A DNA stretch of 64,000 bases from an uncultured Clostridia bacterium. GTDB taxonomy: Bacteria; Bacillota; Clostridia; Christensenellales; Aristaeellaceae. This document shows positions 19,839 through 31,344 of the stretch, piece by piece. Position 1 is the first letter of the stretch. Each line of letters starts with the position of its first letter. Where the stretch lies: positions 1 to 64,000 of the forward strand of contig CAMKNZ010000006.1 of the NCBI GenBank assembly GCA_946414315.1, in the 5' to 3' direction. The notes beneath the pieces are model-generated. The model was not told the origin of the DNA, did no database searches, and saw only the letters and a list, made by a program, of their open reading frames with translations. A program made the translations under genes and the position numbers.

Positions 19839-21005
19839 ATGCTGAACAAGGAAATCCGGGCACAGCTGGAGCAGAAGATCCTGCCTTTCTGGATGAATCT
19901 GAAAGACGCGGAATACGGCGGTTTCTACGGTTTTATGGACAATCACCTGATCCTGAACCGTACGGCGGACAAGGGGTGCATCCTGAACAGCCGGATCCTG
20001 TGGACCTTTTCGGAAGCTGCGCGCCTGCTGGACGGGGAGAAATATACTCCGTTCGCAAAGCAGGCCTACCGTTTCCTGGAACGGTTCACGGATCCGTACA
20101 ACGGCGGTGTGTACTGGTCCGTAACATACGACGGAAAACCGGCGGACACCACCAAGCATACCTACTGCCAGGCGTTTGCCATCTACGGGCTGGCGGCTTA
20201 TTACAGGCTGACCGGTGAACAGGAAGCGCTGGACCGGGCGATGGACCTGTTCAGAACCATTGAGGGCCGGTGCAGGGATGAAGGCGGCTACCTGGAAGCG
20301 CTGAAAGCGGATTTCCTGCCGGAAAGCAATGAAAAGCTGAGCGAGAACGGCGTGATGGCTTCCCGGACGATGAACACGCTGCTGCACGTTGTGGAAGCGT
20401 ATGCGGAGCTGTACCGGGTTCATCCGGACGGACAGGTGATGGTGGCGGCTGTGGAGGGCCTGAACCAGTTCCTGGCGCAGATTTACAATCCGCAAAAGCG
20501 CCGGATGGAAGTGTTTTTCGACAATGACTTCCGGCCGCTGCTGGACATGCAGAGCTACGGGCACGATATCGAGGGCAGCTGGCTGATCTGGGACGCCGTG
20601 GAAACGTTCATCCGGCCGGACGGCTGGGAACCCTGGCGGAAGATGTGCCTGGACCTGCTGGAAAGCGCGACGGAACGGGCTTTCACCGATCACGGCCTGC
20701 ACTATGAGATTGTGGACGGTGAGGTCAACACCACCAGAGCCTGGTGGCCGCAGGCGGAAGCGATGCTCGGGTTCGAATTCGGCTGGCGCATGACAAAGGA
20801 TCCGGCATGGATCAGCCGGATGCGGACGCAATGGACCTATATCTGCGGGCATACCGTGGATCCCCGGGAAGGGAGCGAGTGGTTTAACGAACTGCGGGAA
20901 GACGGGACGCTGGTTGAGGAAAAGCCGATAGTGGAGGAATGGAAATGTCCTTACCATAACGGCCGGATGTGCCTGCGGCTGATGAACGCGGAGCTGGGAG
21001 AATAA
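19839..21005 (+). CDS. AGE-family epimerase, probable mannobiose 2-epimerase
   Basis: A 388-residue (alpha/alpha)6-barrel enzyme of the N-acylglucosamine/cellobiose 2-epimerase family. Recognisable blocks are SRILWTFSEA, ASRTMNTLLHVVEAY, SYGHDIEGSWL, TTRAWWPQAEA and the C-terminal EWKCPYHNG, which carry the catalytic histidines. In this context it should convert beta-1,4-mannobiose to mannosyl-glucose, the substrate of the GH130 enzyme encoded at 23121. Cellobiose epimerisation is a real alternative that sequence alone cannot exclude. It heads the catabolic transcript. Confidence 0.88.
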   Translation: MLNKEIRAQLEQKILPFWMNLKDAEYGGFYGFMDNHLILNRTADKGCILNSRILWTFSEAARLLDGEKYTPFAKQAYRFLERFTDPYNGGVYWSVTYDGKPADTTKHTYCQAFAIYGLAAYYRLTGEQEALDRAMDLFRTIEGRCRDEGGYLEALKADFLPESNEKLSENGVMASRTMNTLLHVVEAYAELYRVHPDGQVMVAAVEGLNQFLAQIYNPQKRRMEVFFDNDFRPLLDMQSYGHDIEGSWLIWDAVETFIRPDGWEPWRKMCLDLLESATERAFTDHGLHYEIVDGEVNTTRAWWPQAEAMLGFEFGWRMTKDPAWISRMRTQWTYICGHTVDPREGSEWFNELREDGTLVEEKPIVEEWKCPYHNGRMCLRLMNAELGE

Positions 21006-21053
21006 GATTCCTCAATGCGTTCTGGGCGATACTCAGAGAAGGGACAGGGAACA

Positions 21054-22061
21054 ATGGCGGTAAAGAAACCAACAATGAGGGAAATCGCCCGCGAGGTCGG
21101 GACCAGCGCGGTGACGGTTTCCAAGGCCATGGCCGGGAAACCGGGCATGAGCGAAGAGCTGCGGATGAAGATCCTGAAGAAGGCTTCGGAGATGGGATAT
21201 GAGTATCCCCACAGCAGCCGGCTTCTGCCAAAGGAACACATGGAGATCGGAATCCTGATTCCGGACAAGTATTTTGAGGCGGATTCGTTTTATGCGGAGA
21301 TCTATAAGCGCCTGGTGAAAAAACTGGCGGATCTCGGGCATTTCGGGCTGCTGGAGATCCTTGATCCGGAAAATGAACAGGAACTGCTCCTGCCCAGCCT
21401 GTTGACCACCAAGCATGTGGACGGGCTGGTGATGCTGGGTGAACCTTCCAAGGCTTACTACCGGAAGATCGCCCAGGCCGGAACGCCTACCGTATTCCTG
21501 GACTTTTACGACGAGCAGGCCAACGCCGACGCGGTGGCGGGGGATAACAGCTACGGCACCTACCGCCTGACCAGCCACCTGATCCGGCGCGGCCACCGGG
21601 AGATCGGCTTTGTGGGGAACATCAAGGCGACAAGCAGCATTATGGACCGGTTCCTCGGCTATTTCCGGGCGATGCTGGTCAACGATCTGCAGGTGCGGGA
21701 AGCCTGGATCCTGCCGGACCGGGGACTGACCGGCGGAATCGTCAAACCGAAACTGCCTGAAGAGCTTCCGACGGCTTTTGTCTGCAACTGTGACATGACG
21801 GCCCGGATGATGATCGACCTGCTGAAAGAAAACGGGTACCGTGTTCCGGAGGATATCTCCGTGACCGGTTTCGACGATTACCCGGCGGGGAGCGACGGAG
21901 ATATCCCGCTGAGCACATTCCGGATCGATACGGACGGCATGATCGAGCTGGCGGTGAAGACGCTGCTGGAGCGCTGCGCCGGGAGCAGTAAACCGTTCGG
22001 CAGGATGGTGGTCGGAGGACAGCCGGTATACCGGGAATCGGAAATTCCAAAGAATTCATAA
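21054..22061 (+). CDS. LacI-family transcriptional regulator of the mannan locus
   Basis: A DNA-binding repressor with an N-terminal LacI HTH (MREIAREVGTSAVTVSKAMAG) and a periplasmic-binding-protein-like sensor domain ending in the SVTGFDDYP block. ATG 21054 places the HTH at the extreme N-terminus, as in the family; the frame is open to 21015 but that part looks non-coding. It is co-transcribed with the epimerase and GH130 genes, and therefore probably autoregulated through the tandem operator at 19806. Candidate operators are the GTTAAC palindromes in this locus. The inducer is probably a mannooligosaccharide (inference). Confidence 0.9.
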   Translation: MAVKKPTMREIAREVGTSAVTVSKAMAGKPGMSEELRMKILKKASEMGYEYPHSSRLLPKEHMEIGILIPDKYFEADSFYAEIYKRLVKKLADLGHFGLLEILDPENEQELLLPSLLTTKHVDGLVMLGEPSKAYYRKIAQAGTPTVFLDFYDEQANADAVAGDNSYGTYRLTSHLIRRGHREIGFVGNIKATSSIMDRFLGYFRAMLVNDLQVREAWILPDRGLTGGIVKPKLPEELPTAFVCNCDMTARMMIDLLKENGYRVPEDISVTGFDDYPAGSDGDIPLSTFRIDTDGMIELAVKTLLERCAGSSKPFGRMVVGGQPVYRESEIPKNS

Positions 22062-22089
22062 TTCATTCAACAGATATGAGGACAAACAG

Positions 22090-23121
22090 ATGAGTAAAGT
22101 AAAGATGATCAATGTCAATTCCCTGCCGAATATTCCCTGGCAGGAGAGGCCGGCGGACCTGATCACAGAGTCTCCTGTATGGCGGTATTCCGACAATCCG
22201 GTCATGGGCCGGAATCCCACGCCGGAGATTGCCCGGATTTTCAACAGCGCGGTGGTACCGTGGGAAGACGGATTCATCGCTGTGCTGCGCGGAGAACAGA
22301 TCAACGGCGTTCCCTATGTCTACCTGGGCCATTCAAAGGATGGCATCCACTGGGATGTGGAACGGCAGAAGGTGCCCTTTACCGACGAGGAAGGAAACCC
22401 GAAGATGCCGCATTATGCCTACGATCCCCGGCTGGTGAAGGTGGAGGATACGTACTATATCATCTGGTGCGGCGACTTCTACGGCGCCTCCATCGGCATG
22501 GCAAAGACAAAGGATTTCAAAACCTTTACCCGGATCGAAAACCCCTTTATTCCTTTTAACCGGAACGCGGTGCTGTTTCCCCGGAAGATCGGCGGAACCT
22601 ACCGGCTGCTTTCCCGTCCGTCGGACAGCGGACATACGCCCTTTGGCGATATCTTCATCAGCGAGAGCCCGGACATGACCTTCTGGGGCAAACACCGCCA
22701 TGTGATGGGCAGCGGCGGAGAGTGGTGGCAGAGCGTGAAGATCGGCGCCGGCGCGGCGCCGATCGAGACCAGCGAAGGCTGGCTGATGTTCTACCATGGC
22801 GTGGCGACTACCTGCAACGGCTTTGTTTATTCCATGGGCGGCGCGATCCTGGATATCAACGAGCCCAGCAAGGTGCTGTACCGCTGCGCGAACCATCTGC
22901 TGACGCCGGAAGAACCCTATGAGGTCAGCGGCTATGTGCCGAACGTGATCTTCCCCTGCGCGACGCTGCAGGACGGGGATACCGGACGCATCGCGATTTA
23001 TTACGGCGCGGCGGATACAAACGTCGGACTGGCGTTAACGACGGTGGACGAAGTGGTCGGATATATTAAGGAACACAGCGTACTGCACTGTGGCGACGAT
23101 GAAGGAGTACATAATTACTGA
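22090..23121 (+). CDS. GH130 beta-1,4-mannooligosaccharide phosphorylase (GH130_2-like)
   Basis: A 343-residue five-bladed beta-propeller phosphorylase. Family blocks include [32 protein letters not shown] (containing the probable catalytic Asp), YHGVATT, VIFPCA and [12 protein letters not shown]. It would release mannose-1-phosphate from mannooligosaccharide ends. Cytosolic, with no signal peptide. The shorter length and N-terminus fit subfamily 2, while the next gene fits subfamily 1, the usual pairing in Ruminococcus- and Roseburia-type mannan loci. Its stop codon overlaps the next start by one base. Confidence 0.87.
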
Positions 23122-24299
23122 TGCGCAGCAGAAGTTTTGAATCTTTGGTTGAACAGTATGAGCGGCTGCTGGCCAGGCCGAACCCGGCGGATGAGCATTT
23201 TTACAACGGGCTGTTCATCCGGTACCGGAACCCGGTGCTGACCCGGGAGCATATCCCGCCCTTCTGGATGTATGACGCGGATCCGGAAACCAATCCTTTT
23301 ATGATGCAGCGGCTGGGCGTCAACGCAGTGATGAACAGCGGCGCCATCAGGCTGAACGGGAAATACTGCCTGGTGGCCCGGGTGGAAGGAATGGACCGGA
23401 AGAGCTTCTTTGCCGTGGCGGATAGCGACCGGCCGACGGAAGGTTTCCGTTTCCGGGATTATCCGGTGATCCTGCCGGATACGGAGAAGCAGGAGACCAA
23501 CGTATACGACATGCGCCTGACCGCCCATGAGGACGGATGGATCTACGGCGTGTTCTGCTCCGAGAGCAAGGATCCTGACAACGCGGATCTTTCCGCGGCG
23601 GTCGCCGCGGCGGGCATCGTGCGGACGAAGGACCTGGAAACCTGGGAGCGGCTGCCGAACCTGGTCACCCTGAATTCACCCCAGCAGCGGAACGTGGTGC
23701 TGCATCCGGAATTTGTGGACGGGAAATATGCTTTCTATACCCGTCCGATGGACGATTTTATTGAAACGGGATCCGGCGGCGGCATCGGCTTCGGCCTGTG
23801 TGAGGATATCACCCACGCAGTCATCGGGGAGGAAAAGATCGTCTCCCGCCGGAAATACCATACCCTGACGGAAGCCAAGAACGGCGCCGGGGCGGTCCCG
23901 ATCAAAACGGACCGGGGCTGGATCCATATTGCCCATGGCGTGCGGAATACCGCGGCGGGTCTGCGTTATGTGCTTTACGCCTTTGCCACGGACCTGAAGG
24001 ACCCCTCAAAGGTGATCGCGGAGCCTTCCGGCATGCTGCTGGGCCCGCTGGGCCGGGAACGCACCGGGGATGTGAGCAATGTGGTATTTACCAACGGCGC
24101 CATCGCGGATGACGACGGAAAGGTCTATATCTATTACGCTTCTTCCGATACCCGGATGCATGTGGCGGAGACGGATATTGAGCGGCTGAAGGACTATGTG
24201 TTCAATACGCCGGAAGACCCGCTCCGCAGCCCGGACTGCGTGCGGCAGCGGGCGGAACTGATCCGGAAGAACCTGGAGTACATGAGTGAAAGAAGGTAA
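23121..24299 (+). CDS. GH130 4-O-beta-mannosyl-glucose phosphorylase (GH130_1-like)
   Basis: A 392-residue GH130 enzyme with the longer N-terminal helix typical of subfamily 1. Seen: [34 protein letters not shown] (probable catalytic Asp), [12 protein letters not shown] and [12 protein letters not shown]. It would phosphorolyse the epimerised disaccharide Man-Glc to mannose-1-phosphate and glucose, so it works directly after the epimerase encoded at 19839. Translationally coupled to the preceding GH130 gene (TGATG). Confidence 0.87.
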
Positions 24300-24302
24300 A
24301 CC

Positions 24303-25805
24303 ATGCTGAAACCGGCGGCGCTGTTTACGGACGGGGCGGTACTGTGCAGGAACAAGGAGATCCGCGTTTTCGGAGAAACGGATCACCGGACTGTTACGGC
24401 CGTCCTGTATGACAGGAACGGCGCGATCCTGGCGGAAACGGTATGTGAAAGCAGGGACGGCCGCTTCCTGGCGTCCCTGGCGCCGCAGCAGGCGCAGACC
24501 GGCTGCAGGCTGATCATCCGGGCCGGAAACGAACAGGCTGAGACGGCGGACGTCGCGATCGGCGAGGTATTCCTGGCCGGCGGCCAGAGCAATATGGAAC
24601 TGGAACTGCGAAACGCGGATGAAGGGCCGGAAATCCTGAAGACGTACGACGATCCGCTTCTGCGGTTCTTCAATGTGCCGAAGATCGCCATCGCGGGTCC
24701 GGAACATCGGAAGGCCAATGACGAAACCCGCTGGCACGCCATCCGTCCGGGGGAGGGCGGTGAGAACAGCGCGGTGGCGTATTTCTTTGCCGCGAAACTG
24801 CGGGAGCGGATGCCGGAGATTCCCGTGGGGATCATCGGATGCTACTGGGGCGGGACGTCGATCACCTGCTGGATGGAGGAGGAAACGCTCCGGACAGAGG
24901 CGGAGGGCGCCCGCTACCTGGATGAATACGCCGCGCTGAGCGCAGGCAAAGCCATGGAATCCTGGCTGGAGGAAGACAAGGTTTTCTGGGACGTACTGGA
25001 TCAGTGGAACAAGGCAGTGGCGGATTATCAGCAGGCCCATCCGGACGCACCCTGGAAAGAAGTGGAGGGTGCCTGCGGACCCGCGCCGTGGAATCCGCCT
25101 CCGGGACCGGGTTCACCTTTCCGCCCGGCGGGGCTGGCGGTGACCATGGTCCGGGAGGTCGTGCCGGTGACGCTGACAGGCATCCTGTATTACCAGGGAG
25201 AGCAGGACGCGGAGGTAACGGATCAGTACGACGTGCTGATGAAGCTCCTGATCCGGAGCTGGCGGGAACTGTTCCGGGAAGAAGATCTGCCTTTCCTGTT
25301 CGTGCAGCTGCCCATGTGGCTGAACTGGGACGCGGAGGACAAGCGCTTCTGGGCGAAGCTCCGCCTGGCCCAGGCGAAAGCCCGGGATGAAATGAAAAAC
25401 ACGGGCATGATCTGCCTGCTGGACCAGGGCGAATACGGCAACATCCATCCCACAGCAAAGCGGCCTGTCGGCGAACGCCTGGCGGAGCTGGCCGGTGCGA
25501 TGATCTACGGCGGCGGGGAAGTGTCGCCCCGGGCGACCGGGTTTGAAACGGACGGGGATACCCTGACGGTGAAACTGTCCGCACCGGTGACGACTAAAGA
25601 CGGCAAGGAACCGAACCTGCTGGAGATCGCCGGAACGGACGGGCAGTATGCGCCCGCCGGGGCGGAGATCCGGGGAGACCGGCTGATCCTGAAAGCCGGC
25701 GGCGTCAGTCATCCGGTTCGTGCACGGTACGCCTGGACGGATTATTCCGATCAGGTGAACCTGGCCGGGGAGAACGGGCTGCCTGTGGAACCGTTTGCAT
25801 TCTGA
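24303..25805 (+). CDS. SASA/SGNH-family carbohydrate esterase, probable acetyl-mannan deacetylase
   Basis: A 500-residue sialate-O-acetylesterase-like protein: a beta-sandwich N-terminal region, catalytic Ser in GGQSNMELE, oxyanion block GGTSITCW, YYQGEQDAE, and a C-terminal His in GNIHPTAKRPVGERLA. No signal peptide, so it acts in the cytosol. Plant mannans are acetylated, and the gene is embedded between mannan phosphorylase and mannosidase genes, so removal of acetyl groups from imported oligosaccharides is the likely role. Sialate deacetylation is the family name only; nothing here points to sialic acid. Confidence 0.82.
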   Translation: MLKPAALFTDGAVLCRNKEIRVFGETDHRTVTAVLYDRNGAILAETVCESRDGRFLASLAPQQAQTGCRLIIRAGNEQAETADVAIGEVFLAGGQSNMELELRNADEGPEILKTYDDPLLRFFNVPKIAIAGPEHRKANDETRWHAIRPGEGGENSAVAYFFAAKLRERMPEIPVGIIGCYWGGTSITCWMEEETLRTEAEGARYLDEYAALSAGKAMESWLEEDKVFWDVLDQWNKAVADYQQAHPDAPWKEVEGACGPAPWNPPPGPGSPFRPAGLAVTMVREVVPVTLTGILYYQGEQDAEVTDQYDVLMKLLIRSWRELFREEDLPFLFVQLPMWLNWDAEDKRFWAKLRLAQAKARDEMKNTGMICLLDQGEYGNIHPTAKRPVGERLAELAGAMIYGGGEVSPRATGFETDGDTLTVKLSAPVTTKDGKEPNLLEIAGTDGQYAPAGAEIRGDRLILKAGGVSHPVRARYAWTDYSDQVNLAGENGLPVEPFAF

Positions 25806-25833
25806 CCCGGAATAAGTCGGACGGAGTGAATCA

Positions 25834-28218
25834 TTGCTGATGAAAAAATTGAATCTTTGCGGAACATGGGAAATGACCGGAGACGACGGACGCAGTTTTC
25901 CGTCCGAAGTACCCGGGAGCGTGCTGAAGACCCTGCTGGACTGTGAAGCCATTCCCGATCCGTTTGACGGAACAAATGAATTTTCTGTCTGTGCTGAAAC
26001 TCTGCGCAGGTGGTCTTTTGCGCGTACTTTCCGGGTTACGGAAGAGGAACTGGCGCACGCGAACGCAGATCTGGTGTTCGAGGGACTGGACACCCTGGCG
26101 GTTGTCGAACTGAACGGGCAGACAGCGGCACGGACAGACAACATGCACAGGACATGGCGTATTCCGGTCAAGAATAAACTTTGGGCCGGGGAGAACACGA
26201 TCCGGGTGTCGTTTGTTCCTGCAATGAAATATGTGGAGAAAGCAGCCGCGGAAAACCCGGAAGTATCTTATAACGGCGGAAGCGAGTTAAAAGGTACCGG
26301 ATTCCTGCGAAAAGCACACTATATGTTTGGCTGGGACTGGGGTCCGCGCCTTCCGGATGCGGGGATATGGCGCGAAACGCGGATTGAGTTCTACGACAAC
26401 CGACTGGAGGAGATCCGGATCTGTCAGGAGCACCGGACGGATCGGGCAGACTTGGAAATACTTGTTTCTTCCGGTGCAGAACAGATCGGACTTGAACTGA
26501 CAGATCCCACCGGACGGCCGGTAGCCGGTACGGAGGGCGAACCGGGGAAGACACTGCGCCTGATTGTGGAGCAGCCGAAACTGTGGTGGCCTAACGGACT
26601 GGGAGAACAGCCGCTTTATACCCTGAAGGTCATGGCTCGAACCGGCGGCAGGGCGGAGGACGTGAAAACCCTCCGCCTGGGGCTGCGGACGATGACAGTC
26701 TGCCGGGAAAAGGATGACTGGGGAGAAAGCTTTGCCCTGTGCTGCAACGGAGTGAAGTTTTTTGCCATGGGCGGGGATTATATTCCTGAGGACAGCCTGC
26801 CGGTCCGGATGACCCGGGAAAGGACGGAGCAGCTGCTGCAGGACTGCCGGGACTGTCACTTCAACACGATCCGGGTCTGGGGCGGGGGAATCTATCCGGA
26901 AGAGTACTTCTACGATCTGTGTGATGAAATGGGTCTTGTGGTATGGCAGGATCTGATGTTCGCCTGCAACACCTATAAGCTGACGGACGAATTCAGGGAA
27001 AACATAATCCGGGAGGCGGAGGACAATCTCCGGAGAATCCGGCACCATGCCTCTCTGGGACTGATCTGCGGCAACAACGAGATGGAGACGGCCTGGCTCA
27101 GTTGGGGCGGGGTAAAGGAACAGCCGGACTGCCTGAAGCAGGATTACCTGGAACAGTTTGAACATGTGCTGAAGGATGTATGCACCCGAGAAGCGCCGGA
27201 TATATTCTACTGGCCTTCCTCTCCGTCGTCCGGCGGCGGGTTTGATGATCCGAACAGCCTGGAGCGCGGAGACGTGCACGACTGGTCTGTCTGGCACGGG
27301 AGGAGACCGTTTTCGGATTTTGCGGAACGGTATCCAAGGTTCTGCTCAGAATTCGGATTTGAATCATTTCCCTGCATGGATACGCTGAAGAGCTTCGTGC
27401 ATGAAGAACGGGAAATGAATCCCTTTTCCCGGGTAATGGAAAGCCACCAGAAATGCCTGTCCGGCAACACGACGATACTGTATTATCTGAGCCAGACGCT
27501 GCGTTATCCTTTCTCCATGGAAAAGCTGGTTCACGCAAGCCAGTGGCTGCAGGCAGAGGCTGTACGGACAGGCGTGGAGCACTGGCGGAGGCACCGGGGA
27601 CGGTGTATGGGTGCTATCTTCTGGCAGATCAATGACTGCTGGCCGGTCGCGAGCTGGGCAGGGATTGATTCAGCCGGCCGATGGAAGGCACTGCAATACA
27701 GGGCGAGGAATTTCTTTGCGCCTACGGCGGTGAGCCTGTGCCGGGAGAACACGGGATACGCGGTGTACGTGACGCATGAGCGGCGGGAGCATTTCCGGGG
27801 AAAGGTCGTTTGTATTATCCGGGATCAGGAGGGGAAAAGATGCAGGGAATACACGATGGAGGTGAACTGCCCGGCGATGAGCTCCGTGAACGTCGGAAGG
27901 ATACTGCCTGAAAGCGGGGAGACAATGAAGATTGTGCAGTGCGTTCTGCATGATGATAAGGGAATGGCTCTCAGCGAGTGCGAGGAACTGTATACTCCGC
28001 CGAAACACTTTCCCTTCAGAGAACCGAAAATCCGGGTTTCCTGCGAAGGACGGAAGATCACGCTGGAAGCGGACACCTTCTGCACGGGAGTGGAGTTGCA
28101 GGCAGCAGACGCAAGATTTTCAGATAACTGGATTACCTTATATCCGGGGGAACCAAGAACGCTGACTGCGGACCGGGAATTGGACGCGAAAGAGCTGAAC
28201 GTGCTGTGGCTTGAGTAG
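25834..28218 (+). CDS. GH2 beta-mannosidase
   Basis: A 794-residue exo-acting glycoside hydrolase. The N-terminal jelly-roll (LNLCGTWEM) and the two following sandwich domains precede the TIM barrel, with acid/base Glu in ICGNNEMETAW and nucleophile Glu in FCSEFGFESFP. WDWGPRLPDAGIWR is characteristic of the mannosidase branch. No signal peptide. TTG 25834 has GGAG at good spacing, and ATG 25840 is an alternative two codons in. It would trim mannose from the non-reducing ends of oligosaccharides. Last gene of the mannan operon. Confidence 0.92.
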   Translation: MLMKKLNLCGTWEMTGDDGRSFPSEVPGSVLKTLLDCEAIPDPFDGTNEFSVCAETLRRWSFARTFRVTEEELAHANADLVFEGLDTLAVVELNGQTAARTDNMHRTWRIPVKNKLWAGENTIRVSFVPAMKYVEKAAAENPEVSYNGGSELKGTGFLRKAHYMFGWDWGPRLPDAGIWRETRIEFYDNRLEEIRICQEHRTDRADLEILVSSGAEQIGLELTDPTGRPVAGTEGEPGKTLRLIVEQPKLWWPNGLGEQPLYTLKVMARTGGRAEDVKTLRLGLRTMTVCREKDDWGESFALCCNGVKFFAMGGDYIPEDSLPVRMTRERTEQLLQDCRDCHFNTIRVWGGGIYPEEYFYDLCDEMGLVVWQDLMFACNTYKLTDEFRENIIREAEDNLRRIRHHASLGLICGNNEMETAWLSWGGVKEQPDCLKQDYLEQFEHVLKDVCTREAPDIFYWPSSPSSGGGFDDPNSLERGDVHDWSVWHGRRPFSDFAERYPRFCSEFGFESFPCMDTLKSFVHEEREMNPFSRVMESHQKCLSGNTTILYYLSQTLRYPFSMEKLVHASQWLQAEAVRTGVEHWRRHRGRCMGAIFWQINDCWPVASWAGIDSAGRWKALQYRARNFFAPTAVSLCRENTGYAVYVTHERREHFRGKVVCIIRDQEGKRCREYTMEVNCPAMSSVNVGRILPESGETMKIVQCVLHDDKGMALSECEELYTPPKHFPFREPKIRVSCEGRKITLEADTFCTGVELQAADARFSDNWITLYPGEPRTLTADRELDAKELNVLWLE

Positions 28219-28256
28219 GAGAAAAGGACAAACGAACAAAAAACAAGCGAAAAACA

Positions 28257-28285
28257 TTGACAATCGACCGGGAAGAGCGTAAACT
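28257..28285 (+). promoter_or_regulatory. Promoter of the T-box leader
   Basis: TTGACA (28257-28262), 17-bp spacer, TAAACT (28280-28285). Confidence 0.75.
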
Positions 28286-28291
28286 CCCAAT

Positions 28292-28546
28292 AAAGGCCTT
28301 GAAGGAGAGGGTTTCAGGTTTCGGCGTAAGAGACGCGGCGGGTGGTGCGAGCCGCGGGAAGAACCTGATCACTGTCGCTCCCGAGCCGGAAGGAAGAAAG
28401 CGAGAACGCGAGTAGAGCCTTCCCGAACCAGCCGCGTAAGGGCAGAGGACCTGATGGGGTCCATGAGTGGCGGAGTGATCCGCAATTTGAGTGGTACCGC
28501 GGGTGTGAATTCATACTCGTCTCAAAGCGATTTGAGACGAGTTTTT
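28292..28546 (+). promoter_or_regulatory. T-box riboswitch (apparent specifier AUC, isoleucine)
   Basis: The T-box core GAGTGGTACCGCG lies at 28489-28501. TTTGAG (28486-28491) plus GCGGG (28499-28503), flanking the bulge UGGUACC, pair with CTCGT and CTCAAA (28516-28526) to make the antiterminator. The same 28516-28526 segment pairs with TTTGAGACGAG (28531-28541) plus a T-run to make the terminator. Stem I has an apical GGTGGTGCGA loop region and a CAGGTT/AACCTG helix. ATC at 28368-28370, followed by A, lies in the expected specifier loop. The U of UGGU matches a tRNA with discriminator A, as in tRNA-Ile, which argues against Ser, His or Asp readings. The specifier assignment is by eye. Confidence 0.85.
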
Positions 28547-28579
28547 GTTTCCATGAAGATCGCAATGGAGGGACGAATC

Positions 28580-30877
28580 ATGGCGCAGATGACGGGACTG
28601 AATTACAAGATTCAGGAGATGGCTCACCGGATCCGGGAGCTGCGGGAGATCGAGAACTTTACGATCGCTGAAATGGCGAACAAGACGGGCGTCACCGAGC
28701 AGGAATACATCGACTGCGAAATGGGCCGGTCGGACCTGAACTTCGCGTTCCTGTACCGCTGCGCCCTGGCCTTCGGCGTCGACGTCGGAGACATCATCGA
28801 GGGTTCCAGCCCGAACCTGAACTCCTTTACCGTTACCCGGCGGGGCGAAGGCCAGCGCATTGAGGAAGCCCACGACATGATCTATTACAACATGGCTGCT
28901 TCCTTCCGCAACCGGATCGCTGAGCCCCTGTATGTGCAGGCAGCCTACAGCGCCGAGGCGGAGAAGGAGGATATCAAGCTGACCACCCACGAAGGGCAGG
29001 AATGCGATATCGTCATCGAAGGCCAGCTGAAGGTCCAGGTGGGCGAGCACATCAGCGTGCTGAACCCCGGCGACTCCATCTATTACGATTCCGGCACGCC
29101 CCACGGCATGATCGCCGTGGGAGGACAGGACTGCCTGTTCTACGCGATCGTCCTGAATCCGACCGGCGCGCCGATTCCGGAACTGAGTCCCGAGAAGGCC
29201 ATGCCCGGTACGGCCCTGCAGGAGTTCCCGGCGGAGAACGGACGCACCCGTGTGTGGCACCGTTACGCGGACGTGGAAAAGGACGAGAACGGCACGCCCG
29301 TGAAGATCGACTTCAAGAATACCGACAAGTTCAACTTCGCCTTTGACGTGATCGACGCCATCGCGGACGAGATCCCGAACAAGCTGGCGATGCTGCACCT
29401 GGACCGGGACAAGAACGAGCACCGCTTCACCTTCAACGACCTGAAGCGCGCGTCTAACCGCTGCGCCAACTATTTCAAATCCCTGGGCATCAAAAAGGGC
29501 GACCGGGTGATGCTGGTGCTCAAGCGCCACTATCAGTTCTGGTTCTCCATCCTGGCCCTGGAAAAGATCGGCGCCATCGCGATCCCGGCTGTGGCCCAGC
29601 TGCAGGAGCACGACTTTGAATACCGCTTCAACGCCGCCGGCGTGAAGGCGATCATCTGTACCGCGGACGGTGATACTGCCCACCAGGCAGACCTGGCCGC
29701 GAAGAACGCGCCGAGCCTGGAACTGAAGCTGATCGTGAACGGACAGCGCGAAGGCTGGCATGACTTCGACGAGGAATACCAGATGTATTCCACCCATTAC
29801 AACCGTACGGAAGATACGCCCTGCGGCGACGACCTGATGCTGATGTACTTCACCTCCGGCACCACGGGCTATCCGAAGATCGCCGCCCACAGCTACAAGC
29901 ATCCGCTGGGCCACCTGCACACCGCCAAATACTGGCACTGCGTGAACCCGAACGGCCTGCACCTGACCATCTCCGATACCGGCTGGGCTAAAGCCGGCTG
30001 GGGCAAGATCTACGGCCAGTGGCTGTGCGAAGCCGCTATCTTTGTTTACGACTTTGACCGCTTCGACGCGGCGGACATCCTGCCGCTGTTCGCGAAGTAC
30101 AACATCACCACCTTCTGTGCGCCGCCCACCATGTGGCGGATGCTGATCAAGCAGGACCTGAGCAAGTATGACCTGAGCTCCGTGACCCACGCCTCCAGCG
30201 CCGGTGAAGCGCTGAACCCGGAAGTCTACCGCCAGATCGAGCTGCAGACCGGCCTGCAGGTTATGGAAGGCTTCGGCCAGACCGAAAGCACCATGATCAT
30301 CGGCAACCTGGCCGGTGCGGATCACAAGCTGGGTTCCATGGGCAAGGTCGCCCCGATCTACAACGTGGCGCTGCTGGATCCCGAAGGCAATCCCGTCGCC
30401 GCCGGTACGCCGGGCGAGATCTGCGTGGATATCTCAAAGGGTATCCCGATCGGCCTGTTCCAGAAGTATTACCGGGACGAGGAAAAGACCAACGAAGTCA
30501 TGCACGACGGCTGGTACCACACCGGTGACCTGGCCTGGTGCGACGAAGACGGTTTCTACTGGTATGTGGGCCGCGCGGACGATGTGATCAAGTCCAGCGG
30601 CTACCGCATCGGACCGTTCGAGATCGAGAGCGTGATCATGGAACTGCCCTATGTGCTGGAGTGCGGCGTCAGCGCAGCGCCGGACGAGGTCCGCGGCCAG
30701 GTGGTCAAGGCGAGCATCGTGCTGACCAAGGGCACGGAAGGCACCGAGGAGCTCAAGAAAGAGATCCAGAATTACGTCAAGCAGCATACCGCGCCGTATA
30801 AGTATCCCCGGATCGTCGTTTTCCGGGACGAGCTGCCCAAGACCGTGTCCGGCAAGATCCAGAGGGCGCTGCTGTGA
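28580..30877 (+). CDS. XRE-cupin-AMP-forming acyl-CoA synthetase fusion
   Basis: A 765-residue cytosolic protein. Residues 14-72 form an XRE-type HTH, about 115-185 a cupin (EGQLKVQVGEHISVLNPGDS), and about 240-765 an ANL ligase: P-loop FTSGTTGYPK near 424, GFGQTES, YHTGDLAW, SSGYRIGPFEIES and the catalytic Lys near 759 in KTVSGKIQR. The ligase half resembles medium-chain or aryl acyl-CoA synthetases. Start ATG 28580 has GGAGGG seven bases upstream. It lies directly behind the T-box, so amino-acid starvation should raise its expression. I infer activation of a carboxylic acid used to build an amino acid. A stop-start overlap couples it to the Nudix gene. Confidence 0.88.
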   Translation: MAQMTGLNYKIQEMAHRIRELREIENFTIAEMANKTGVTEQEYIDCEMGRSDLNFAFLYRCALAFGVDVGDIIEGSSPNLNSFTVTRRGEGQRIEEAHDMIYYNMAASFRNRIAEPLYVQAAYSAEAEKEDIKLTTHEGQECDIVIEGQLKVQVGEHISVLNPGDSIYYDSGTPHGMIAVGGQDCLFYAIVLNPTGAPIPELSPEKAMPGTALQEFPAENGRTRVWHRYADVEKDENGTPVKIDFKNTDKFNFAFDVIDAIADEIPNKLAMLHLDRDKNEHRFTFNDLKRASNRCANYFKSLGIKKGDRVMLVLKRHYQFWFSILALEKIGAIAIPAVAQLQEHDFEYRFNAAGVKAIICTADGDTAHQADLAAKNAPSLELKLIVNGQREGWHDFDEEYQMYSTHYNRTEDTPCGDDLMLMYFTSGTTGYPKIAAHSYKHPLGHLHTAKYWHCVNPNGLHLTISDTGWAKAGWGKIYGQWLCEAAIFVYDFDRFDAADILPLFAKYNITTFCAPPTMWRMLIKQDLSKYDLSSVTHASSAGEALNPEVYRQIELQTGLQVMEGFGQTESTMIIGNLAGADHKLGSMGKVAPIYNVALLDPEGNPVAAGTPGEICVDISKGIPIGLFQKYYRDEEKTNEVMHDGWYHTGDLAWCDEDGFYWYVGRADDVIKSSGYRIGPFEIESVIMELPYVLECGVSAAPDEVRGQVVKASIVLTKGTEGTEELKKEIQNYVKQHTAPYKYPRIVVFRDELPKTVSGKIQRALL

Positions 30878-31344
30878 TCGACTCCACCCTGTGCTATCTT
30901 TACCGCGGGGACGAAGTGCTGATGATGCACCGCACGCGGAAGAAGAACGATATGAACCACGACAAGTGGATCGCCGTAGGCGGCCGCTTCGAGGCGGGGG
31001 AAAGCCCGGAGGACTGCGCCCTGCGCGAGGTCCGGGAAGAGACCGGGCTGACCATGCTGGACGCGGCTTACCGCGGCGTGGTCACCTTTATCAACGATCA
31101 GTATGAGACGGAACGGATGCACCTGTTCACCTGCGAACGCTGGAGCGGGGAGATGACCGACTGCGACGAGGGCGAACTGGTATGGCTGCCGAAGGCGGAG
31201 ATGAACAGCCTGCCCATGTGGGAAGGCGACCGCATCTTTCACCGCCTGCTGGATGAAGGGGTTCCATTCTTTGAACTGGAGCTGGTCTACAGCGGGGAAA
31301 AGCTGCTGAGCGCCAGCCTGGACGGAAAAAAACTGGAGATCTGA
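30874..31344 (+). CDS. Nudix hydrolase (8-oxo-dGTP diphosphatase-like)
   Basis: A 156-residue MutT-like protein. The Nudix box begins at GGRFEAGES and continues to REVREETGL, with all metal-binding glutamates present. Its GTG start overlaps the synthetase stop (GTGA), so it is in the T-box operon. It may hydrolyse oxidised dNTPs, or a nucleotide side-product. The family alone does not fix the substrate, and the operon link may be only incidental. Confidence 0.87.
   Translation: MIDSTLCYLYRGDEVLMMHRTRKKNDMNHDKWIAVGGRFEAGESPEDCALREVREETGLTMLDAAYRGVVTFINDQYETERMHLFTCERWSGEMTDCDEGELVWLPKAEMNSLPMWEGDRIFHRLLDEGVPFFELELVYSGEKLLSASLDGKKLEI

Follow-up and report, generated by a model that had tools for sequence, protein, structure and literature searches.

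A valine-type T-box leader upstream of a putative isobutyrate-CoA ligase gene in an uncultured Clostridia bacterium

The window analysed here is a 64,000-nt stretch of DNA (contig CAMKNZ010000006.1, positions 1-64,000, assembly GCA_946414315.1) from an uncultured rumen bacterium of the Clostridia (Aristaeellaceae), whose assembled genome is 60% complete. Its forward strand carries a T-box leader followed by a gene for an acyl-CoA ligase in which a helix-turn-helix (XRE) domain and a cupin precede the adenylating enzyme (Table 1). The leader is a T-box with a stem I, a bulge, and a mutually exclusive antiterminator and terminator. An earlier note on this DNA had described a complete antiterminator/terminator switch with a common segment, a UGGUACC bulge and a protein with XRE, cupin and AMP-binding domains; all of these were recovered by the leader alignment and the domain search.

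Table 1. Features of the T-box-ligase locus in the window, and leucine-type units in other loci (locus named; positions within that locus)
Feature	Position	Strand	Basis
Sigma-70-like promoter, TTGACA-17 nt-TAAACT	28257..28285	+	Consensus match
T-box leader, RF00230	28290..28527	+	73.2 bits, E 7.6e-16, gathering threshold 93
Stem I, closed by lower helix 28304-28307/28378-28381	28304..28381	+	Pairs retained in 66-67/67 leaders
Distal stem I, helix 28334-28339/28351-28356	28334..28356	+	RF00230 alignment; paired in 55-66/67, several pair types
Specifier codon GUC (valine, probable), then G 28377	28374..28376	+	Register, orthologues, cognate tRNA-Val(GAC) in own genome
Antiterminator, 28486-28491/28521-28526 and 28499-28504/28515-28520	28486..28526	+	Leader alignment
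T-box bulge UGGUACC; UGGU would pair with ACCA of tRNA-Val (discriminator A)	28492..28498	+	Invariant 67/67
Intrinsic terminator, 12 bp stem (28515-28542) and U-rich tail	28515..28548	+	Terminator search
GGAGGGA, probable ribosome binding site of ATG 28580	28567..28573	+	Direct sequence reading
XRE-cupin-AMP-binding acyl-CoA ligase, 765 aa; proposed isobutyrate-CoA ligase	28580..30877	+	Domain, structure and NCBIfam searches
Helix-turn-helix (XRE), residues 17-73	28628..28798	+	HTH_19, E 4.3e-8
Cupin, residues 131-190	28970..29149	+	Cupin_2, E 1.5e-12
Adenylation core and C-terminal domain, residues 262-759	29363..30856	+	AMP-binding E 2.9e-62; AMP-binding_C E 8.6e-21
Ala470 codon, sole ligase-domain position fully splitting the two clades	29987..29989	+	Alignment of both clades
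Leucine unit, L259	4978..9002	-
Leucine unit, L260	4761..8701	-
Leucine unit, L190
Leucine unit, L262	651..4518
LeuA-like/fusion gene pair, L261	44..3900
LeuA-like/fusion gene pair, L263	1597..5453

In an alignment of 67 leaders (the window and 66 orthologues; L072 was dropped), the segment 28515-28526 forms the 5' arm of the terminator and the 3' side of the antiterminator at once. Antiterminator pairs are retained in 62-67 of the 66-67 aligned leaders; for the terminator pairs the figure is 59-66, counting leaders without a gap at these positions. The bulge lies within 12 bases, AGUGGUACCGCG (28490-28501), that are unchanged throughout. The lower helix of stem I, with CUCC as its 3' side in the window, occurs in GC, GU and AU versions. 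Promoter and terminator are each the sole match of their kind in 28200-28600, where shuffling gives means of 0.1 and 0.4. The RF00230 match is full length and ranks third among the six T-box matches of the window's 60%-complete genome. A chance match was rejected on its E-value and on the GUN triplet found in register in 72 of 80 orthologues.

The specifier register, in which a single base separates the codon from the 3' strand of the lower helix of stem I, was derived from the TrpX-like leader (GAA-UGG-G) and the thrS leader (GAU-ACC-A) of the same genome and was applied by eye to 30 of the 33 T-boxes in three near-complete genomes of the genus. It reads UGC for cysS, CCG for proS, ACC for thrS, UGG for both trpE and a TrpB-like gene, and CUG for a LeuA-like gene. 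The cysS, proS, thrS, trpE and TrpB-like proteins exceed their NCBIfam cut-offs; the TrpX-like protein does not (214 of 390 bits). In the same three genomes the register reads GUA and AUC for two ligases. The idea that the conserved GUA is a structural motif was considered; against it, the third base varies, paralogues carry AUC at the corresponding place and the known leaders are read correctly.

Orthologues were taken as the best 80 of at least 593 confirmed matches. An automatic finder called a codon in 69 of 82 leaders (60 GUA, 7 GUC including the window, 1 GUG and 1 AUC, the last in the paralogue of the window's own genome); it had at first missed L038 and misread L057. The count of 72 GUN orthologues comprises 67 finder calls, four leaders located from the true gene start (L027, L042, L043, L078) and one placed by alignment (L074). 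Eight orthologues have no readable leader: five lie directly 3' of another ligase (L020, L041, L045, L062, L075), two leaders are truncated by contig ends (L059, L073), and in L050 the gap holds a leader-like stretch with an altered bulge and an unreadable codon. Across the 67 aligned leaders GU is constant and the third base is A in 60, C in 6 and G in 1. The window's genome encodes tRNA-Val(GAC), which ends in ACCA and so has the discriminator base A that a UGGU bulge calls for. According to Wels et al. (2008; PMC2494555), T-box specifiers agree with verified gene function or pathway. The window T-box is thus probably read by tRNA-Val; a leader for valine, in turn, points to isobutyrate rather than 2-methylbutyrate as the ligase substrate.

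The ligase is accompanied by a close relative. The window's genome has, on another contig, a second full-length ligase of the same kind (L092, 3116-5383) that is 63% identical overall (46% in the HTH, 56% in the cupin and 71% in the ligase domain) and has its own T-box (L004) with the codon AUC. Such a paralogue also lies 5' of the orthologue in many loci, and all 44 paralogue leaders with a T-box motif read AUC. Nine further clustered paralogues lack the motif; four of these lie directly 3' of another ligase (L020, L041, L062, L075) and five are at contig ends (L031, L042, L060, L065, L078). In a FastTree tree of 118 ligases, labelled as focal or paralogue by gene position and not by codon (L027, L042, L043, L075 and L078 were left out), 76 focal ligases and 42 paralogues fall on opposite sides of a single branch, whose local support is 100%. 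The XRE-cupin half is kept in both clades and is a separate adjoining frame in some more distant relatives; it may, as the earlier note suggested, add a second layer of control.

The same division is seen beyond these loci. Among 40 class-wide upstream regions of fused ligases, the codon is GUA for all 14 ligases that share at least 66% identity with the window's and for one at 64%, whereas AUC precedes 20 of 25 others. In each of these two groups two readings are second finder matches (L223, L224, L230 and L249 in all, where the first match was off register and the second in register). The remaining five of the 25 are L248, read as AUC by eye with an altered bulge, and four regions in which no T-box was found (L236, L237, L240, L256). 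For the genus and order, 17 of 20 paralogue regions have AUC, L165 reads AUC by eye, L151 is cut and L166 shows no T-box; all three valine-type regions have GUA. The L171 leader reads AUC by eye and has an altered bulge. No readable T-box was found upstream of the other, split or 43-56% identical ligases in L173-L188, L174 having the motif only.

Of the 518 positions in the ligase domain, just one tells the clades apart at a level of at least 95%. This is residue 470, within TGW[A/G]K, which is Ala in 76 of 76 valine-type and Gly in 42 of 42 isoleucine-type ligases. The aligned residue of 3etc is Gly, that of 8biq Ala and that of ACSM2A Ile. Position 470 presumably lines the acyl pocket, going by work on acetyl-CoA synthetase, and the larger residue of the valine-type ligase would fit a smaller acid. 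We propose Ala470/Gly470 as a candidate selectivity switch between the two ligases, the best reading of the paralogue being that it does the same job for 2-methylbutyrate and isoleucine. A NUDIX hydrolase gene (30874-31344, +) follows the window's ligase, its GTG start overlapping the ligase stop codon; a similar gene is clustered in 3 of the 80 loci.

Two enzymes of the classical valine pathway were looked for. Ketol-acid reductoisomerase (IlvC) was found in none of 37 genus genomes, three of which consist of 1-2 contigs and are 97-98% complete; elsewhere in the order it was found in 10 of 24 families, and the control was positive in 14 of 14. Dihydroxyacid dehydratase (IlvD) was over cut-off in none of the 37, and six weaker matches are perhaps related dehydratases. 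Across 293 genomes sampled class-wide, IlvC occurs in 0 of the 17 that carry a full-length ligase of at least 66% identity versus 169 of 276 others (p 2.3e-7, a value that overstates independence, as the 17 genomes represent 11 families and include the 60%-complete genome of the window). The order sample gives [1,10],[9,4] for ligase versus IlvC (p 0.0045), with the fragment in G041 scored as no ligase. Genomes with other fused ligases have IlvC in 15 of 38 cases, and eight leader regions from these 15 comprise five with AUC and three (G195, G264, G073; one family) in which no T-box was found. This distribution is roughly as expected if the GUN ligase serves valine and the AUC ligase isoleucine.

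The genes 3' of the ligase suggest what becomes of its product. Of the 80 orthologue loci, 58 extend at least 4.7 kb beyond the ligase, and in 39 of these the alpha, beta and gamma subunits of a 2-oxoacid (2-ketoisovalerate-type) ferredoxin oxidoreductase follow on the same strand, joined in 36 by a branched-chain aminotransferase. In L034 the cut-off of NF005507 (3-methyl-2-oxobutanoate dehydrogenase subunit VorB) is exceeded by the alpha subunit, and those of TIGR01123 and NF009897 by the aminotransferase; the beta and gamma subunits pass Pfam domains and score below the cut-offs of related NCBIfam families, and a ferredoxin-like frame lies in between. VorB is also encoded in the window's genome (569 bits) and is over cut-off in 34 of 37 genus genomes; the branched-chain aminotransferase IlvE is likewise in the window's genome and over cut-off in 29 of 37. 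A further T-box is often found near the cluster end, for which the finder reads CUC in 9 of 15, CUG in 1 of 15 and nothing readable or in place in five. Two other neighbours may be recorded: (i) a protein of about 200-220 residues, conserved in 39 of the 58 clusters (L034 7391-7984 and orthologues), which we take to be P-loop-like and for which no Pfam or NCBIfam family match was found, and (ii) a carbon-nitrogen hydrolase (CN_hydrolase; L054 7289-8065 type) behind the ligase in 7 of 80 loci (L041, L050, L054, L062, L063, L072, L083), which might free branched acids from amides.

The explanation that we strongly favor is that a T-box sensing tRNA-Val controls an isobutyrate-CoA ligase that supplies valine synthesis by reductive carboxylation, and that the paralogue acts likewise for isoleucine. 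The T-box anatomy, the specifier, the clade split, the gene neighborhood of the relatives and the lack of any IlvC match in the genus are computed; the substrate of the ligase, the direction of flux and the response to tRNA are what we infer from them. When valine is short, uncharged tRNA-Val would pair with the GUC specifier and, through its ACCA end, with the UGGU bulge, stabilizing the antiterminator so that the ligase gene is transcribed. The ligase would then convert external isobutyrate to isobutyryl-CoA, 2-ketoisovalerate:ferredoxin oxidoreductase would carboxylate this reductively to 2-ketoisovalerate, and the branched-chain aminotransferase would yield valine. The paralogue under its isoleucine T-box would take 2-methylbutyrate to isoleucine by the same route. 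The earlier note had proposed an amino-acid biosynthesis ligase hidden under a fatty-acid annotation, controlled by a T-box and feeding reductive carboxylation; that much stands, and its assignment to isoleucine and 2-methylbutyrate gives way to valine and isobutyrate.

Several observations weigh against this explanation. Rfam's curated threshold for RF00230 is 93 bits, so that a default scan misses the window leader, and no match at that score was found in any of 20 genus loci. The mid stem-I helix is weakly supported in the 67-leader alignment, and the bases 5' of the specifier mostly differ from the GAA of the trp and cys leaders (L067 has GAA). Neither the oxidoreductase nor the aminotransferase lies behind the ligase in 19 of the 58 loci, and these include L007-L012 and L014, the loci from the window's own clade that have enough flank. 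In the window's genus ligase and oxidoreductase are apart, the latter being encoded on a different contig away from any T-box match. The window ligase scores about half of the MbcS cut-off (440 of 850 bits, NF047394). Finally, G130 has IlvC together with a 68% identical ligase-domain match (residues 251-763) without the N-terminal part, and is outside the 17 genomes because this match is not full length. The below-threshold Rfam score is not decisive against a T-box, because some orthologous leaders pass: among valine-type leaders of five distant loci, which score 108.8, 102.6, 94.7, 89.3 and 77.5 bits, L017, L034 and L067 reach 93 bits and L021 and L044 do not. The IlvE gene of the window's genome is on a third contig, also with no T-box match near.

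Three other interpretations were considered. The ligase could prime branched-chain fatty acid synthesis with branched acyl-CoA, as reported for MbcS in Staphylococcus aureus, with the T-box merely coupling it to valine supply. MbcS is indeed the top-scoring NCBIfam model, but the two further steps to valine are encoded behind the ligase in 36 of 58 loci, the full-length valine-type ligase is confined to IlvC-less genomes in the class sample (17 of 17, the case of G130 apart), and two ligases with two matching codons would exceed the needs of primer supply; we regard this as improbable. Slightly less probable still is the proposal of the earlier note that an isoleucine T-box controls a 2-methylbutyrate-CoA ligase feeding isoleucine. 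The letters AUC do occur at 28368-28370, within the 3' half of the stem, and AUC is genuine in the paralogue leader. This triplet, however, starts where the mid stem-I helix ends and sits six bases away from the register that is correct for cysS, proS, thrS and trpE. It varies among orthologues, whereas GUN stands at the register in 72 of 80; the window ligase, moreover, is in the other clade and has Ala470. The earlier note had itself named a covariance score under threshold and a non-isoleucine specifier in orthologous leaders as refuting its idea, and both were observed; the second redirects the idea to valine. Least credible of all is that the set runs backwards, breaking valine down to isobutyrate with a gain of ATP: 2-ketoisovalerate oxidoreductases are commonly oxidative, but a valine T-box should turn the gene on at valine shortage, AMP-forming ligases presumably work in the activating direction, and searches of the genus gave no IlvC and no IlvD above cut-off.

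The proposed control of valine synthesis can be set beside several known systems. T-boxes of the RF00230 type (transcriptional, Firmicutes type) have the same stem I with specifier, UGGN bulge and antiterminator overlapping an intrinsic terminator; the present case differs in having an acyl-CoA ligase as target and in that most valine-type leaders do not carry the GAA noted above. MbcS, the S. aureus methylbutyryl-CoA synthetase, is the top NCBIfam model of both paralogues (440 and 448 bits) and its substrates are presumed to be the same; the ligases here differ in their XRE-cupin half, their T-box leaders and a proposed role in amino acid rather than lipid synthesis. We have not filed the ligase as MbcS because the curated cut-off is not reached, and describe it as a probable isobutyrate-activating enzyme on the basis of sequence comparison. 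Purified S. aureus MbcS selectively activates 2-methylbutyrate and isobutyrate (PMC10026030). The nearest solved structure by sequence is 3etc (594 bits, runner-up 358), in which Gly stands at the Ala470 position, as in the isoleucine-type clade, and which matches the ligase part, leaving the XRE-cupin half unaligned. We take 3etc to be a Methanosarcina acetivorans acyl-CoA synthetase preferring 2-methylbutyrate.

The conversions themselves are long established. Synthesis of valine from isobutyrate and of isoleucine from 2-methylbutyrate has been described in rumen anaerobes since about 1970 (Allison and Peel 1971; Robinson and Allison; cited in PMC7356843), and the genes and their control are what is proposed here. 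The ligase may be the gene behind the old isobutyrate-to-valine observation in rumen bacteria. In the portions of the T-box literature examined, acyl-CoA, CoA and ferredoxin are absent from the main text of PMC2494555, and acyl-CoA and ferredoxin from the surveys PMC3766115 and PMC11477304. Our literature searches returned no T-box tied to isobutyrate with reductive carboxylation, to 2-methylbutyr- compounds, or to phenylacetate-CoA ligase with indolepyruvate, and nothing judged related for T-box riboswitches with acyl-CoA synthetases. No publication naming the activating enzymes or their control was found, the surveys of Vitreschak 2008 and Gutierrez-Preciado 2009 and two 3etc papers, which may mention them, lying outside the search. 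The RNA switches of these bacteria would label the two ligases with the amino acids that they serve, and this would give markers showing which rumen and gut communities depend on branched-chain fatty acids.

A broader proposal, to which we give about an even chance, is that T-box codons label the substrates of a whole family of orphan acyl-CoA ligases (Val for isobutyrate, Ile for 2-methylbutyrate), that residue 470 decides between them and that a third, leucine unit completes a tRNA-controlled system by which anaerobes lacking IlvC make branched-chain amino acids from volatile fatty acids. The leucine unit is possibly a member of the same system. It consists of a T-box with a leucine codon (CUG in three genomes of the genus and, as read by eye, CUC in L262) 5' of genes for a LeuA-like protein and a ligase fusion. 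The fusion joins a xylose-isomerase-like TIM barrel to an AMP-binding ligase (819-838 aa in L259-L263), and the LeuA-like protein has HMGL-like and LeuA_dimer domains in the four scanned (L190, L261, L262, L263). No T-box was seen within the stretches of L261 and L263. A TIM-barrel/ligase fusion also lies 5' of the paralogue in 7 of the 80 loci.

Other T-boxes and genes were observed in passing. In L001, L194, L195 and L197 a T-box whose codon looks by eye like UAC (Tyr) precedes a transporter that we take to be of the SSS type. In L005 a T-box whose codon by eye is apparently UGG (Trp) precedes a transporter set, presumably of the ECF type. Upstream of the ligase locus, the window (19839-28218, +) contains an epimerase-like gene, two GH130 genes and a GH2 mannosidase-like gene, with a regulator between them that we assume to be LacI-type; this region looks like a mannan-use cluster.

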